Shown here piece after piece: positions 16,374 to 63,565 of a stretch of DNA of 64,000 nt. Every line of letters starts with the position of its first letter. Positions within the stretch are counted from its first letter, which is position 1. The stretch is taken from the IMG/VR virus record IMGVR_UViG_3300033571_028151, positions 1-64,000 of that record. The stretch is one strand, 5' to 3'. The notes under the pieces were generated by a model. It had not been told where the DNA came from and ran no database searches. It worked only from the letters and a program-made list of their open reading frames with translations. The stretch is from a virus. The translations under genes and the position numbers were made by a program.

Positions 16374-16518
16374 ACTTATACACTCCGCCCACGAAGAACT
16401 CGGCGAACTTATTTGCAAACCAGAAATGGATCGCGTGTCGTACAATATGTTAAACGCAACATTTTCGGCATTGCTGGCGGCGCGATCGGCGCTGCTTGAT
16501 TGTGTCCCGGGCAAATAA
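16291..16518 (+). CDS. Small helical hypothetical protein, TTG start
   Basis: A 75-residue, Lys/Glu-rich coiled helical protein using TTG at 16291, overlapping the preceding gene by 83 bp in another frame. The hydrophobic pattern in residues 24-70 supports real coding. The start is uncertain because no strong ribosome site is visible. The stop is followed by a hairpin that serves the opposite strand. Confidence 0.55.
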   Translation: MAKKSHLEKAYEKREKEFQKKQRISLFELIHSAHEELGELICKPEMDRVSYNMLNATFSALLAARSALLDCVPGK

Positions 16519-16542
16519 AAAAGCCCCGCCCGAAGGCGAGGC
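16517..16542 (-). terminator. Intrinsic terminator of the minus-strand tRNA operon
   Basis: Read on the minus strand, GCCTCGCC-TTCG-GGCGGGGC forms a stem with one mismatch and a UUCG tetraloop, followed at once by TTTTTT. It lies 31 bp downstream of the minus-strand tRNA and so ends that transcript. On the plus strand the same hairpin lacks a T-run. Confidence 0.8.
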
Positions 16543-16572
16543 TCAAAGGGTGACCCTGCCGGGACACCAATC

Positions 16573-16650
16573 TGGTGGTGGAGGCTGGATTTGAACCAGC
16601 GTTCTTTGGCTTATGAGGCCAACGAGATGACCGGGCTTCTCCACTCCACG
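16573..16650 (-). tRNA. Initiator-like tRNA-Met (CAT), CCA encoded
   Basis: A full cloverleaf. The acceptor stem has six pairs plus an unpaired C1 x C72. The D stem is GAGA/TCTC, the anticodon stem TTGGC/GCCAA with loop CTCATAA (anticodon CAT), the T arm GCTGG-TTCAAAT-CCAGC, and CCA is encoded. The unpaired 1:72 end and the A11-T24 pair are hallmarks of bacterial initiator tRNA. Side by side with E. coli tRNA-fMet most loop bases match. One deviation is the anticodon-stem pair 31:39, which is C-G, so the usual three G-C pairs become GGC/GCC. It is cotranscribed with the minus-strand genes 16655-18248. Confidence 0.9.
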
Positions 16651-16654
16651 TCAG

Positions 16655-17023
16655 TTATTTCTTCTGGTCTTTAGTATACGTGGTGGTCCGTTTGTCGTCT
16701 AGTTCGGCGACGTATTGTTGCACCTCCGTCCCGCGGCTGTAACCGTCGTGCCAGATAGCGCTGAACTCATCGCGCCGCTCAATCGCAGCGACTACGCCCT
16801 CAACAAACTTTTGCGTGTCGTTCGAGTCTCGTTCGCTCCGCACCCGCGACAACTCGTACATCATGTCGGCAATTTGATCGCCCGCGATGCGCTGCGCAGT
16901 CTTGGTGTAATCCAATTGCGTGCGCAAACCGGAGATCACCATGTACTGCGTGACGATCACCTGCGCCAAAATAACGACTACGCTGAAACAAATAGACACA
17001 AGCCACTTGTTGAGGCTCTGCAT
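16655..17023 (-). CDS. Single-pass membrane protein, minus strand
   Basis: A 122-residue protein started at 17023, where AAGGGG precedes the ATG. Residues about 7-30 form one strong transmembrane segment (LVSICFSVVVILAQVIV). The remainder is a long hydrophilic helix, probably a coiled coil facing one side of the membrane. It looks like small phage inner-membrane or spanin-type proteins, but no lysis gene is recognisable nearby. It lies 4 bp before the initiator-like tRNA on the same transcript. Confidence 0.7.
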   Translation of the reverse strand: MQSLNKWLVSICFSVVVILAQVIVTQYMVISGLRTQLDYTKTAQRIAGDQIADMMYELSRVRSERDSNDTQKFVEGVVAAIERRDEFSAIWHDGYSRGTEVQQYVAELDDKRTTTYTKDQKK

Positions 17024-17075: not shown

Positions 17076-18248
17076 TCACTCGGCTGCAAGTTCGAACAAT
17101 TTTTCGAGCGGCAGTAAGCACTCGGCGGCTTTTGTCTGCACGACAGCCGCGATCTTGTTCTCTTGCATCAGCCGGTCCAGCATCGACGCCATACCGCGAT
17201 CCAACGTCGGCACAATCGCGGCCAACTTGTCGCGGTCGAGGTAGACGCCGCCAGCAGTCACGGCGTCGGCGAAATCGTCGCCAAGCCACTCACGCACCTG
17301 CTCCAGCGCCAGTTTCTCCAGATCGTCCAGCGCATACACATTGCCCGTAGTCGTCTCGACGTTGGCGCGCATGAAATCGTTCGCAACCTTCTCGGTCACG
17401 GCGAACAACACTTCTTCAGGACGCGGCAACCCGCCGGCGTCATACAGCCGGTCGAGGTGATTGACGCGGTCGAACTCGTCGACGGCGGCGGCTAACTTCA
17501 AACGCATCTCTTGCTCGCGCGCGTTTTCAGGGTTGCTCTCGACGACAGCGGCCAACTTCAACATCTCAACTGCCGCGGGGCTGTTGCTGCGCTGTACAAG
17601 CGCCGCCCGCTTGCGCAGCATGTCGCCGGCAACACTCGCGGCGCAAGCGCCGAAGCCAGCCGATAACGACAGCACATGCTCGTGATCGCCAATGTCGGCG
17701 CCATACTCGGCAGCCTTGACGAGAATCTTTTCAGCCACCTTCTGGCGGTCTTCGAATACGAACTCATCGCGATACGTGTTAAAATGTTCAGCGGCGAACT
17801 TGACCTCAGTCGCGTTACGCAGCGGCCAGTGCCGTTCTTTCGCGCCTGCGTCAGCCGCCCACACGATAGCGAAATTGTCGTCAGAAAGATTGTTGAGGTC
17901 GTCAACGTTGACAGCCGCAACCTTCTCTTCGAGTTCATTTACCGCGCCAAGGATTCCGAAAAACTTAGCCGCCGCAACGATGCGGGAATGAATCTCGTCG
18001 GCGCGCTTTTCGTTAAACGACGCACGCTTGTCGGCAAAGTGAAGGGCGGACAGCCATGTTGCAGCCGCGGAATGACACGGATAAAGTTTATTGTATTGAT
18101 CGGCGTACATGTGGCGCGGCAGTGTGCTGTCGCCGTGTGTCCGCTCAGCCGAAGCAGACTTAACAAAATCAGGGCAAGCAAAAAGCGTAGTCAGCCGGTG
18201 CGTTTCGCGTCCGGCCACGTCCTGTGTTTGATCGAGCGGAGTTGTCAT
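17076..18248 (-). CDS. Hypothetical 390-aa helical protein
   Basis: I start it at the ATG at 18248 (CAGGAAAA ribosome site). The protein is almost entirely helical and Ala/Glu/Asp-rich, without membrane segments or known catalytic motif. An early region (residues 35-75) has conserved-looking Cys, His and aromatic residues. Composition resembles phage internal or scaffold-type proteins, but I do not recognise it. Its start overlaps that of the divergent plus-strand gene within CATG. It heads a minus-strand operon: this gene, the membrane protein, the tRNA, the terminator. Confidence 0.75.
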   Translation of the reverse strand: MTTPLDQTQDVAGRETHRLTTLFACPDFVKSASAERTHGDSTLPRHMYADQYNKLYPCHSAAATWLSALHFADKRASFNEKRADEIHSRIVAAAKFFGILGAVNELEEKVAAVNVDDLNNLSDDNFAIVWAADAGAKERHWPLRNATEVKFAAEHFNTYRDEFVFEDRQKVAEKILVKAAEYGADIGDHEHVLSLSAGFGACAASVAGDMLRKRAALVQRSNSPAAVEMLKLAAVVESNPENAREQEMRLKLAAAVDEFDRVNHLDRLYDAGGLPRPEEVLFAVTEKVANDFMRANVETTTGNVYALDDLEKLALEQVREWLGDDFADAVTAGGVYLDRDKLAAIVPTLDRGMASMLDRLMQENKIAAVVQTKAAECLLPLEKLFELAAE

Positions 18249-20895
18249 GGGTTTTCCTGCTTGTTTAATTCGCCGACACAACCATTTGCGCGCTTTAGCC
18301 GTTTTGGGGCTGTCGTTGGAAAAGCCGGTCTTCCCAGCAATTTTACAATGCCCGCATTGTCAGCAAAACACGCTTCACGTTTTCGATGATATTTTAACAG
18401 ACGGCCTGTGGTTGAACTGTACGGCCTGCTCAGCCCACGGGGATATCATAACGTTTGGGGCCAATATCTGGAATCTAAGTTTACCAAATACCCTCACAAA
18501 ATTCAGCGATTCCGGCATTATTACGGAAAACGACGCGAACAGGGTAATTGGCGATTATGACCGGGCTTTGGCTAAACAAAAAGCCGCTGAGAACTTCTGG
18601 TTCGACGCGGAATCTCAGGTCTGGAATCATGGCGATGACGTTATCGCCTGCCGGCTTAGAGAGTTTGGTGTCAGGAGTGAAATTGACGGATGTTACGGCC
18701 TTGTAGGGGTCGCGCACTATGACCAAATTGCAAAAGTTTGTGCGGAAATGGGAAGAGCGAAACCGCCTCGATTACGCGACGGTGGGGCCGCTCTTGTATT
18801 TCCTTTTTATGACCTGCCCGGAAGATTAACCGGGTTCTTGTTGTTGCAATACAACGACATCAACGAATCTAAGCAGGTGTTTATTGGGCTGTCCGGCTAC
18901 CGCCGGCAAAAACCCGAAGCCGGGTATTTTCTGCTCAAAGAAGTCATTGGCTCTGCGCCGGAAATGCTCAAAGGCACCCAGTTTGTGTCCGACGACCCGC
19001 TCTGGGTGCTGCAAACACAGTGCGATTATCTCGCGCGCCACATGCAGACCTTACCGCTGGCGGCCAGTTATAGCGGTCCAGAGGCCGAAAGTTACGGCGC
19101 AACATGGGCGGCATTACCAAACGGCGGCAGAATATTCCACGGCGCCGTAGCCACACCAGAACTCATCAGCCGCGCCTGCAACGCCAAGGGCTACGCCGCT
19201 GCGGTGCCGCCGTCCAACCGGGTCACAAAACCGTACGGTAAAGCCGTCGACCACGCAATCATGGGGCGGCTCAGCGCTATGCGCGTCAACGCCAAAACGT
19301 GGCAAAAAGCGTTAATTGACGCGACCATCGGTGTCAGCGAACTTAACGCGCAAGCGTTCATGCAGCGACTCACTGTGCCGCACGACAAACTTAGCCTGTT
19401 TCTTGAGCGGCACGCAGCACAGTTTTCAAAAGACTTTAAAGACCGCGTACTCGCCGCGGTCAAAATGTCGCTCGCTGCTCCGACCAGAACAGGTCGACGG
19501 CGAATCGTAATTGAGCGAGACACGGGGTGGTGGAATCAAATGGGGCAGCAAATATCAAATGCGCGGGTAACTATCGCCAAAGTGTTGCAAGCCGATACCG
19601 GCGACAAGATGTACTCCGGCAGCGTGTACATGGACAATCAAGAGTACACGTTTACAGACTCTGCCAAGCGAATTGAACGTATGGGTTTGTTGGCATATGC
19701 TGCGACAGTCATGGCGCCACACGGCAAGTTGGTCATTTTTGACCGCTCGTGGAACAGAAGCAGCCATATGATCGCGATGCAGTTGCGCCCGCCCAAACTC
19801 GTAAACGTGGCGACCAAGTCTGGGTGGGACGAAAATACGCACACGTTTCGCTTTGCCAAATACGAACTAACCCACGCCGGCGAAATACAGCCGGCACAAG
19901 GCTGGACGTCGCGCAAGACGGCCAAGGTGTTTCCAGAACCAGCGCCAATTGCACCGCTGCCGCTTCGCGACCTGTTGACGCCCGCCCATGAAAACTCGTT
20001 CGTGTGGGCGTTCACCGCCGCGGCGCTAGGCAACCTCGTCGCGCCGATTATGCGCAAAGACTATATCGCCACAGCAATTTCGTGCCAAAACTTCGACGTT
20101 GCCCAGCGCGTCGGCGAGGCCTTGGGTTGTGCCGGCGAACAAACGACAGTGCTCCAGCGCAAAAACTCGCATCACTTTTTAAATAGCATTACCGCAACCG
20201 CGACGTGGCCGGTTCTAGGCTACAGCGCGTTCAACGACGACGTGTTTAACCCGCACGTCCCGAAGTACTTTAATCGGCCGCTATTTTTACGGCTGCAACA
20301 ACCGCCGGCCACCAGCGGCCTCAGTTACGGCTGGCAGGCGATAAAAGCCGCGCCAACAAATCTGCAATACGACCTCGACCCGCTGCGGTACGTCTTGCCA
20401 GCGTACATTCAGCGCGCGTTAAAAAACCGGCTGAACATATTCAGCCGCGTAGACAACATCCACGCAACTGTGCTCAACGACTTACACGCGTGGATGAGCG
20501 AAACATACGGCGTAGCGTTCAATTTAGCGCACGCCCAAAGCCTCATGGCCTACGCCTCTTCTGCCCACACCGAACTCGCGCGCGAACTAAACAGAGCCAT
20601 TTCGGCCGAAAAACTAACGGTTTTACCGGTACCCAGAAATAGCCGGCAAACCAATGACTATATTTTACGCAAAAAAGACCATTGGTGGTTGAATCGACGG
20701 GCCATTGATCGTTATTTTTATACAGAGCGTAGCGTCGGCCCTAACTGGTTGGCGATAATAGATTTGCTGCAACAGGACGGCGTTTACGCGGGCGAAGAAG
20801 TCGTACACAATATGCAAGGCGTACTAGTTAACAAAGACTGGTGCGATCAATTTCTTATTCCGTCAGGAGAGTCGCTGGAAAAAGAGACTGGTTAA
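18247..20895 (+). CDS. Large protein with primase-type zinc finger
   Basis: An 882-residue protein. Residues 35-66 (C35-x2-C38 ... C58-x2-C61-x2-H64-G-D) closely match the CHC2-type zinc ribbon that primases use to read template DNA. The next 170 residues, including an LVFPFYD...RLTGFLL stretch, resemble the start of a DnaG/TOPRIM-type core. No Walker A motif is seen in the remaining 600 residues, where a primase-helicase would have one. It may be a diverged primase-helicase relative whose ATPase is lost. A GGAG ribosome site supports the ATG. A separate, complete TOPRIM primase lies at 59333. Confidence 0.65.
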   Translation: MGFPACLIRRHNHLRALAVLGLSLEKPVFPAILQCPHCQQNTLHVFDDILTDGLWLNCTACSAHGDIITFGANIWNLSLPNTLTKFSDSGIITENDANRVIGDYDRALAKQKAAENFWFDAESQVWNHGDDVIACRLREFGVRSEIDGCYGLVGVAHYDQIAKVCAEMGRAKPPRLRDGGAALVFPFYDLPGRLTGFLLLQYNDINESKQVFIGLSGYRRQKPEAGYFLLKEVIGSAPEMLKGTQFVSDDPLWVLQTQCDYLARHMQTLPLAASYSGPEAESYGATWAALPNGGRIFHGAVATPELISRACNAKGYAAAVPPSNRVTKPYGKAVDHAIMGRLSAMRVNAKTWQKALIDATIGVSELNAQAFMQRLTVPHDKLSLFLERHAAQFSKDFKDRVLAAVKMSLAAPTRTGRRRIVIERDTGWWNQMGQQISNARVTIAKVLQADTGDKMYSGSVYMDNQEYTFTDSAKRIERMGLLAYAATVMAPHGKLVIFDRSWNRSSHMIAMQLRPPKLVNVATKSGWDENTHTFRFAKYELTHAGEIQPAQGWTSRKTAKVFPEPAPIAPLPLRDLLTPAHENSFVWAFTAAALGNLVAPIMRKDYIATAISCQNFDVAQRVGEALGCAGEQTTVLQRKNSHHFLNSITATATWPVLGYSAFNDDVFNPHVPKYFNRPLFLRLQQPPATSGLSYGWQAIKAAPTNLQYDLDPLRYVLPAYIQRALKNRLNIFSRVDNIHATVLNDLHAWMSETYGVAFNLAHAQSLMAYASSAHTELARELNRAISAEKLTVLPVPRNSRQTNDYILRKKDHWWLNRRAIDRYFYTERSVGPNWLAIIDLLQQDGVYAGEEVVHNMQGVLVNKDWCDQFLIPSGESLEKETG

Positions 20896-60415: not shown

Positions 60416-63400
60416 ATGGCCCACGCTGTGTCTTTAAATCACAGGCATGCCAGCGCACTTTACGACGACACAGGGGCGGAACTAACCGCCGACCTGTTTC
60501 CGATGGTTGCGCTTGATTCTGTCGGCATGCCTCCAGCAGGCGCCGACTTTATTGCTCACGCCGTGGCACTAGGTGACGACCCCACGGTTGTGAACGTCAA
60601 AAACAAAAAGAAACTACCGGTGGGCGAAAAACTCGTCCATCTTTACCGAGCCGCGCTGTATGACCCGGCGTTCTCGATGCCGATCACGCTCAAGGGCGGC
60701 GCTGAGATTGTGCAGTTCCTGCCCGGTCATTTGATGAAGTACGGCACCGGTGACGACCCCGTCTACGGCCCGAAGCCGGCGCGCGTAATGATCGTCGGCA
60801 AGATTCCGGGCATTAACGAGTTGAGCGACCGCAGCGCGATCACCGGCCCTGTGATGGAACCGCTGTTCAAAGCGCTGCGGCAGTGCGGGTTCAATACGCA
60901 AGACTACCGCGAGTGGTACATTACGCACGCGTGCAAGTTCGGCTCTCCGACGCCCGACACTACCGCAGTTCCTGCGGCGTGGATTAAAAACTGCGCGGTT
61001 TTACTAGCGCAGGAAATCAGGCTTGTCAAACCGGACTATATTCTGTGTCTTGGTAACGAGGCCACGAAGGCTGTTTTAAATACTAATGCCAGCGTGTCTG
61101 ATCTTGCCGGCCGAGCGACGCCGCTGAAGACATACGACGCCGACGGCCACGAGCGTGAAATTCGCGTCATGTCTGTGATGCATCCGGGCTACGTTCTCCG
61201 CAAGCCCGAGGTGTACGAAGACTTTTGCGGGCAGTTGGCGCGGTTCAAAGACTTGGTCGAAAACCGCGAGACAATCGTTGAAGAGGTCGATCACGCCGAC
61301 ATCTACACGGAAGACGCCCTGCGTGAAACCGTGGACGCAATGCTGGCCGATCCAGACCCGAGTGCCAACATTATCGCCGTCGACTGCGAGTGGCACGGCG
61401 ACTACCCGACAGAAGAAAGTGCGTATCTTCGTACTGTTCAGATATCAAATAAGGATAAGTGGGCGCGCACAATTGTTCTGCGCCATCAAGGAGGTGCAGA
61501 TGCTTTTAAACCTAATCTGGAGGCGGCACGGTTGCAACTCGCCCGGTTGCTCAAAAGTACGCCGGAAAGGCATGTCCGTGTCGGCGGTCACTTTTTCCGT
61601 GCTGACTTGCCATGGCTGTTTGCTTTTGGCGTGGATGTGCGCCCGGAGTATGCTCCCGCCACCGACCCGGACGACCGAACCCACGGCGGCTGGGACACCA
61701 GCCTCATGTACCACGCGGTTAATGAGTGCGCCAAATATGGCCTCGACGTCTGCTCCATGCGATTCACCAGTGCGCCTACATACTGGGACGAACTGAACGA
61801 GTGGCGTAAACGCTATCGCGCCGAGAACAAGTTAAAAGCCGGCGATATGGAGGGCTACGGAGATTGCCCTGCCCACGTGCTGCATCCTTACGGCGCATAC
61901 GACGCTGACGTCACGCGCCGAATCATGATGCATTTTTACGGCACTAACGGTAAAGACGGCGCTCTCGCCCGTGACCAACACGGCCACGATTGCTGGTTGC
62001 CGTACTGGACAGCGCACCGGGCGTCGTTGTCGTTTCTGGAAATGGAAATGACCGGGCTTGTGATCGACCGCACACGCGCCGACGAACTGACAACGTTATT
62101 CATGAATACTCAAGAACGACTGTTGGCAGAGATTCGCGCAGAATTAAACTGGCCGGATTTCAACCCAAAGAGCCAGCCGCAGTTGTCGGTCGCTTTATTT
62201 GGCGAAGCGTTTTCAAATAGATATACCAATCCGCCAAACGTCCCGGAAGGCGCGCAGTTGCTGAACCTGCGGCCAGTTAAGACAACCGGTAAGCGGCCGG
62301 TTCTGTGGAACGAAATGAGTTGGCGGGGTGTGAATCCTGATACGGCTACGCCCAGCACCGACAAGGAAAGCCTTGGCATTCTCGGGCACATAAATCCCAC
62401 CGCGGCTAAAATCCGGGACTACAAGTTTATCAGTCAGGTTTTGCAGTCGGTGTTGCGTAAGCCTTCTATCACGGATGACGGAGACTACGAAGTCGATGAA
62501 AACGGTAATTACTCGTATGAAAAAGGTCTTGTCGGCTGCGTTCACGCCGACGGTCGGGTCCGTACTCACTTTTTCCAAACTAAAGAAACTGGTCGTGCGT
62601 CTTCCTCGCGACCCCCACTGCAAAACCTCAGTTCCAGACGAGAAAACGACTACGAACGAATTCTTGGCGAACAATACCAACATCCGGTTCGCTCAATATT
62701 GCGCGTCCCGCCCGGCTACGTCGGGATTGAAACAGACCTCACTGGTGCGGAATTGGCGGTCCTCGCGTGGTTGAGTCAAGACGCAGACATGATCGAACAC
62801 GTGCGGCGTAACCTGCTGCCGGAAAGCCACCCCGACCATTACGACATCCACAGCCAACAGGCAATTAAAACGTTCGGCATTAGCGACGTTGAGCCGACAA
62901 AGAAGGGGCTGGAGAAAGCCGGCAAGAAAGGTTTACGTATCGCGGCCAAAAACGTGAACTTCGGTATTCCCTACGGTCGCGGCGCCGAAGCCCTTGCGCG
63001 ACAGTGTAAAGAAGAAGGCGTCGATGTTACGGCCGATCAGTGCCAAGCGATGATCGAGGCGTATTTTGCGTCCTATCCTCGCACGCGTCATTTCTTGGCT
63101 GAGTGCCGCGCCCGATCGCAAGACCCGGGTTGGCTCATGGGACCGTACGGGCGCATGCGGCGGTTTGTGCCGTCAAAAGATCGCGCCATCAGAGGCGAGC
63201 AGGAGCGGCAAGCGCAGAACTTCCCGATTCAAGGCGGCGTGGCCGATGCCGTGTCTATTGCCTTGTCTAATTTCCAGCGTTACCGCGACGAGCACCCAGA
63301 AATCGATTACCGAATTGGGTTGCAGATTCACGACGCCATTGTGTTAATTGTGCCGATTGAGCACGCTGAACAGGTGTACAAAGAGGTGGTGCCCAAATGC

Positions 63401-63565
63401 ATGATCGATGCTGTGCCGTTTTATCCGCGACGGTTGGATGGTGGTTTGATTGATGCTGGTCCGTATCGCTTCGGGTCTTCTCGCGAGGTGTTCGTCCACT
63501 GGGGCGAGACACTGAGCGATGACGAAGCCAAGGCGCTCGGATTGCACTGGTTGGCCGAGAAATAG
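60416..63565 (+). CDS. polA: Uracil-DNA glycosylase / family A DNA polymerase fusion
   Basis: A 1049-residue protein. Residues about 122-280 match a family 4-type uracil-DNA glycosylase (ARVMIVGKIPG, LCLGNEATK, VMHPGYVLR with H256). Residues about 320-500 hold a 3'-5' exonuclease (D323, E325 and later acids). Residues about 560-1049 form the polymerase. Motif A is D774-L-T-G-A-E; the O helix has K845, F849 and Y853. Motif C reads H-D973-A974 where most enzymes have H-D-E. UDG fused to a phage polymerase is known and may remove uracil ahead of copying. It is the main replicative enzyme here. Confidence 0.93.
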   Translation: MAHAVSLNHRHASALYDDTGAELTADLFPMVALDSVGMPPAGADFIAHAVALGDDPTVVNVKNKKKLPVGEKLVHLYRAALYDPAFSMPITLKGGAEIVQFLPGHLMKYGTGDDPVYGPKPARVMIVGKIPGINELSDRSAITGPVMEPLFKALRQCGFNTQDYREWYITHACKFGSPTPDTTAVPAAWIKNCAVLLAQEIRLVKPDYILCLGNEATKAVLNTNASVSDLAGRATPLKTYDADGHEREIRVMSVMHPGYVLRKPEVYEDFCGQLARFKDLVENRETIVEEVDHADIYTEDALRETVDAMLADPDPSANIIAVDCEWHGDYPTEESAYLRTVQISNKDKWARTIVLRHQGGADAFKPNLEAARLQLARLLKSTPERHVRVGGHFFRADLPWLFAFGVDVRPEYAPATDPDDRTHGGWDTSLMYHAVNECAKYGLDVCSMRFTSAPTYWDELNEWRKRYRAENKLKAGDMEGYGDCPAHVLHPYGAYDADVTRRIMMHFYGTNGKDGALARDQHGHDCWLPYWTAHRASLSFLEMEMTGLVIDRTRADELTTLFMNTQERLLAEIRAELNWPDFNPKSQPQLSVALFGEAFSNRYTNPPNVPEGAQLLNLRPVKTTGKRPVLWNEMSWRGVNPDTATPSTDKESLGILGHINPTAAKIRDYKFISQVLQSVLRKPSITDDGDYEVDENGNYSYEKGLVGCVHADGRVRTHFFQTKETGRASSSRPPLQNLSSRRENDYERILGEQYQHPVRSILRVPPGYVGIETDLTGAELAVLAWLSQDADMIEHVRRNLLPESHPDHYDIHSQQAIKTFGISDVEPTKKGLEKAGKKGLRIAAKNVNFGIPYGRGAEALARQCKEEGVDVTADQCQAMIEAYFASYPRTRHFLAECRARSQDPGWLMGPYGRMRRFVPSKDRAIRGEQERQAQNFPIQGGVADAVSIALSNFQRYRDEHPEIDYRIGLQIHDAIVLIVPIEHAEQVYKEVVPKCMIDAVPFYPRRLDGGLIDAGPYRFGSSREVFVHWGETLSDDEAKALGLHWLAEK

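Follow-up and report, generated by a model that had tools for sequence, protein, structure and literature searches.

An initiator-type tRNA with a C31:G39 pair in an uncultured phage, and the variability of the 31:39 pair in viral initiators

The three G:C pairs of the anticodon stem are taught as near-universal marks of initiator tRNAs. A tRNA gene in an uncultured phage keeps the first two of these pairs and inverts the third, which raises two questions: whether such a gene encodes a genuine initiator, and why a phage should carry one that departs from the rule. The gene lies in a window of 64,000 nucleotides (the whole stretch of DNA that was analysed), which comes from a virus record of 86.7 kb. 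As will be seen, the main interest of the locus is the relaxation of the 31:39 rule among viral initiators, of which the window tRNA is one member.

A complete tRNA with the marks of an initiator

The gene is a complete tRNA-Met(CAU) of initiator type, 78 nt long with its encoded CCA, located at 16573..16650 on the minus strand (read from 16650 to 16573, the CCA at 16575-16573), as are the terminator, the promoter-like site and the two upstream genes described below. ARAGORN calls it Met CAT, and Rfam RF00005 matches 16576-16650, CCA excluded, with 61.1 bits (E 8.9e-11; gathering score 29), in agreement with the CAT-bearing tRNA proposed by the sequence-only reading, which had left the strand unstated. 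Arm by arm it reads CGTGGAG TG GAGA AGCCCGGTCA TCTC G TTGGC CTCATAA GCCAA AGAAC GCTGG TTCAAAT CCAGC CTCCACC A CCA, one D-loop base longer than the 77 nt of E. coli tRNA-fMet with which it was aligned.

The published marks of formylation are a mismatch at 1:72, G2:C71, C3:G70 and A11:U24, and those of the ribosomal P site are the three stem G:C pairs (PMC7949028). The window tRNA departs from them at two places only, C3:G70, which is U:A (G2:C71 is present, and C3:G70 occurs in five of seven distinct related sequences), and G31:C39, which is C:G. Both the unpaired C1 and C72 and the A11-T24 pair pointed out beforehand are present in the Rfam match and in the alignment: C1 (16650) faces C72 (16577), a mark of formylation and of exclusion from elongation that Infernal flags as unpaired ('v'), and A11 (16640) pairs with U24 (16625) in the D stem (16625..16640). 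The anticodon arm (16606..16622; TTGGC-CTCATAA-GCCAA, with CAT at 16615-16613 by ARAGORN and by alignment) contains G29:C41, G30:C40 and then, as the third of the three conserved pairs, C31 (16618):G39 (16610) in place of G31:C39, the C-G pair already remarked on from the letters. Two of the three stem pairs therefore stand in the G-to-C order; T5's accepted initiator also lacks the full set, and many bacterial initiators have A29:U41. The CUCAUAA anticodon loop and the UUCAAAU T loop, together with the C1xC72 mismatch, A11:U24 and G30:C40, are those of bacterial tRNA-fMet save for base 72, and C1xC72 itself is uncommon, being found in 3 of 88 well-parsed viral initiators.

The positions outside these diagnostic ones tell the same story. 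When 356 CAU tRNAs were compared over 52 non-diagnostic positions, the 20 nearest neighbours of the window tRNA comprised 18 initiators, two unassigned sequences and no elongator or Ile2 tRNA, in a test where the elongator set is small and leave-one-out is weak for that class. Taken with the 1:72 mismatch, A11:U24, G30:C40 and the loop, this leaves the predicted initiator identity, also claimed by the sequence-only reading, well supported. We file the gene as a putative initiator-type tRNA of a phage kind, and not as a canonical bacterial tRNA-fMet.

Related phages and the neighbourhood of the gene

The phages of this group are uncultured, have genomes of about 200 kb and encode a family-A polymerase with a uracil-DNA glycosylase (UDG) domain and a gpA-like terminase. 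Cultured phages are remote, the nearest being below 30% identity by both polymerase and terminase. In the window, positions 60416-63565 encode a single 1049-aa protein in which the UDG domain is N-terminal to the family-A DNA polymerase. A near-identical genome of 198 kb (G023; 100% over the 11 kb compared, polymerase 100%) carries the same tRNA. The tRNA cluster of the ~200 kb relatives also holds a tmRNA (L066:7249-7603 in G023, with the tag GASAPALAA; also in L077, L078, L080, L081, L083 and L084).

The initiator pattern occurs in nine of 28 related records, which reduce to seven distinct sequences. Across these seven, all 133 helix cells are paired and 9 of 19 pairs show two-sided changes, a level reached in none of 500 shuffles. 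C31:G39, G30:C40 and A11:U24 are invariant, and C1 faces C or U, never a base with which it could pair. From these compensatory changes the window tRNA is predicted to be a functional RNA, and it is not a product of chance, because six further distinct relatives, with C1xU72, keep the structure by covariation.

There is also synteny, since in one relative (G007) the tRNA stands at the same locus, among neighbours of 46-77% protein identity. In the remaining carriers the initiator tRNA is found 0.7-1.7 kb from a tRNA-Gln, so it has either moved or been gained twice. The gene is also dispensable, as three group records of 194-204 kb (G011, G020 and G027) contain no pattern match. A search of 11 relatives found no tyrosine integrase (PF00589), and no formyltransferase or peptide deformylase either, so charging and formylation would depend on the host. 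That the tRNA is phage-encoded, as had been proposed, agrees with its place on a virus contig and with the lack of a phage integrase in full-length relatives.

Downstream of the tRNA there is an intrinsic terminator with a 10-bp stem and a T run (16511..16544; five terminator-like sites found vs 1.0 expected in shuffles). Upstream, a sigma-70-like candidate promoter, TAGACG-17-TATACT (16673..16701), places its -10 box 22 bp from the tRNA 5′ end, a weak prediction with one site found vs 0.6 by chance. A small ORF of 122 aa (16655..17023), missing at the same place in G007, stops 4 bp before the tRNA and is probably co-transcribed with it. Farther upstream is a conserved gene of 401 aa with no family match (17076..18281), whose G007 homologue (70% identity) stops 15 bp before the initiator tRNA of that phage. 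A PHROGs search of the genes nearest the tRNA returned no function.

The 31:39 pair in viral and bacterial initiators

Initiator tRNAs had been called rare in phages, a claim that proved too strong: pattern scans of IMG/VR viral contigs gave at least 120 matches, and sequence matches occur in 57 INPHARED records (a few of them bacterial contaminants), including cultured phages of Aeromonas, Vibrio, Agrobacterium, Caulobacter and actinobacteria, besides the annotated initiator of T5. Several deposited phage genomes carry initiator tRNA genes that are unannotated, for instance Vibrio phage VH7D (L427:297-370), and in the open-access literature we found little on phage initiator tRNAs beyond the T5 tRNA papers.

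In the viral scan the pattern fixed the 3′ strand of the D stem, the loop and the T arm and left the anticodon stem free. Among the 114 matches listed, the 31:39 pair is G:C in 83, C:G in 11, U.G in 10, U:A in six, A:U in three and G.U in one, so that 73% keep G31:C39 and 31 of the 114 (27%) do not. Over the same matches listed, 29:41 is A:U in 60, G:C in 27 and U:A in 25, and 30:40 is G:C in 106 of 114 (93%). In a looser scan, viral anticodon loops vary at 32, 37 and 38, and all of these tRNAs keep G30:C40 (L436-L455).

The bacterial initiators, by contrast, show G30:C40 and G31:C39 in 256 of 256, with a purine at 29 throughout. This set was counted by hand from 149 Planctomycetota and 120 Pseudomonadota genomes with a pattern without the fixed T arm, and leaves out two fortuitous matches, a single degenerate copy in tandem and, where a genome had been chosen for its accessory copy, that copy. 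Non-G:C pairs at 31:39 are thus enriched in viruses, with 31 of the 114 matches listed vs 0 of 256 in bacteria (Fisher 6e-18, a value that overstates independence, the sequences being related, while host-like copies in the viral set dilute the difference). A link to planctomycetes, with whose tRNA-fMet the sequence-only reading had proposed an alignment, finds no support in the count: R29-G30-G31 occurs in 118 of 121 pattern matches from this phylum, and no match has C31:G39 apart from that in the genome selected on this ground.

C31:G39 was considered as a phage signature in itself and dropped, as only about 10% of viral initiators (among the matches listed) have it; the real pattern is one of relaxed outer pairs. 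Among 84,980 species genomes, C31:G39 is found in only 102 stretches. Most of the 48 bacterial genomes with C31:G39 that were examined also have a canonical initiator copy, and four of 10 sampled loci in bacterial genomes adjoin terminase, portal or head genes. Examples of C31:G39 initiators beside such genes, in prophages or phage contigs, are L250, L265, L241 and L206. Separately, Actinoplanes, Asanoa and relatives (L205, L221, L226, L230, L235, L243 and L274) have an accessory C31:G39 initiator-like tRNA, mostly with U1xU72, which stands beside canonical copies in the two Actinoplanes-group genomes checked.

Possible roles and comparison with known systems

What could a phage gain from such a tRNA? 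In the reading that we prefer, with a probability of roughly 60%, this is a genuine phage initiator, charged and formylated by the host and kept to sustain the initiator supply during infection. The tRNA would be expressed from a small unit of its own that ends at the terminator; host enzymes would charge it with Met and formylate the Met, and host ribosomes would use it to start phage (and host) proteins, so that it would supplement or replace the host initiator when tRNA-fMet becomes limiting or is attacked. The flip should be tolerated because the known contacts and needs fall on the other two pairs: A1339 and G1338 of 16S rRNA contact 30:40 and 29:41 (PMC11497404), and efficient synthesis needs 29:41 and 30:40 (PMC11231383). 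Changing the least constrained pair, 31:39, would leave the A1339 contact at G30:C40 intact. Tolerance may be greater when the host initiator is scarce, since a 3GC-mutant tRNA initiates once host initiator genes have been deleted (PMC7949028). Three features weigh against this reading: the group records of 194-204 kb that contain no pattern match, the rarity of C1xC72 among viral initiators, and U3:A70 in place of one formylation element.

The flip also alters base 39. Enteric VapC toxins cleave tRNA-fMet between A38 and C39 (PMC4105405), so the changed base adjoins the bond that is cut, although this is the cut site of enteric VapC and may not be that of the host of this phage. This proximity suggests nuclease escape as a possible reason for the change, which is no general requirement of viral initiators, as 73% of them (among the matches listed) keep G31:C39. 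Relaxed constraint accounts for the data equally well and is the main rival of nuclease escape. More speculative, and in our view rather improbable, is the idea that phage initiators form a distinct class selected to work with a host initiator pool that is cut or depleted, keeping A11:U24 and G30:C40 (for formylation and the A1339 contact) and rewriting 31:39 and, elsewhere, base 38, on either side of the bond that VapC cuts.

Among the alternatives to the preferred reading as a whole, plain dosage deserves the most attention: a spare initiator would boost fMet-tRNA in a translation burst, and the stem change would be neutral drift at the least-needed pair. We regard it as possible, though short of an even chance. 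It fits the variation of both 29:41 and 31:39 in viruses while 30:40 stays, the need for 29:41 and 30:40 in efficient synthesis, and the retention of C39 in most viral initiators among the matches listed. Drift alone, however, clashes with the complete absence of 31:39 changes from the 256 bacterial initiators, several of them from multi-copy genomes, and with the constancy of the flip in seven diverged sequences whose other stem pairs change, yet 30:40 is constant there too. A bias of start-site choice toward phage messages or GTG/TTG starts, put forward by the sequence-only reading, is improbable. Stem changes can matter in principle, as start codons are discriminated differently in vitro once 30:40 is changed (PMC11497404), but in the window tRNA 30:40 is unchanged, anticodon and loop are standard, and the starts used across the window look ordinary (about 58 ATG, 8 GTG and 8 TTG in a crude gene call).

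Still less credible is the confusion of an elongator Met or Ile2 tRNA with an initiator. All three classes share the CAU anticodon, but the elongator Met and Ile2 tRNAs of T5 have C11:G24 and a pairable 1:72, and the window tRNA has neither a paired 1:72 nor a pyrimidine 11 facing a purine 24; the absence of both classes from its nearest neighbours points the same way, within the limits of that small elongator set. Least probable of all is that the phage carries, by chance, a piece of a host tRNA or what is left of an attachment site. Although phages often integrate at tRNA genes, the 11 relatives lack a PF00589 integrase, the tRNA is complete, covaries and lies within a block of phage genes, next to conserved neighbours, and its stem differs from those of all 256 sampled host initiators.

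Phages appear to break the third pair and in many cases the first as well, but to keep the second. Nature has thus run a mutagenesis experiment that bears on which features the ribosome actually checks, and T5, Aeh1 and phiAS5 are cultured carriers that can be used at the bench. Phages have been reported to avoid tRNA-fMet generally where VapC targets it (PMC10264068); against this earlier view, a counter-defence role of phage initiators can be tested. Nuclease-proof phage initiators, if they exist, would make initiator depletion and escape a battleground between phage and host.

Compared with known systems, the window tRNA shares with E. coli and bacterial tRNA-fMet the fold, CUCAUAA, A11:U24, a 1:72 mismatch and the G:C pairs at 29:41 and 30:40, and differs from them in lacking C1xA72, C3:G70 and G31:C39. 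The annotated tRNA-fMet of T5 (AY543070; L415:8429-8506) also has CAU, A11:U24, G30:C40, a non-pairing 1:72 and an altered third pair, with its own departures from the bacterial rules (U1xU72, A29:U41 and U31.G39); unlike the window tRNA, it belongs to a cluster of at least 20 tRNA genes in a cultured coliphage and has a different D arm. Closer in the stem are the initiators of Aeromonas phages Aeh1 and phiAS5, Agrobacterium phage Atu_ph07 and Pseudomonas phage Milchi, with C31:G39, G30:C40 and A11:U24 as in the window, which differ in having A29:U41 and, in place of C1xC72, a weak U1:A72 or A1:U72 or a C1xA72. Finally, nuclease-insensitive phage tRNAs have been proposed by van den Berg et al. 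(eLife 2023; PMC10264068). The proposed role is alike, a change near the site of a host nuclease cut, but those changes lie in anticodon loops, whereas that of the window tRNA lies in the stem of an initiator.
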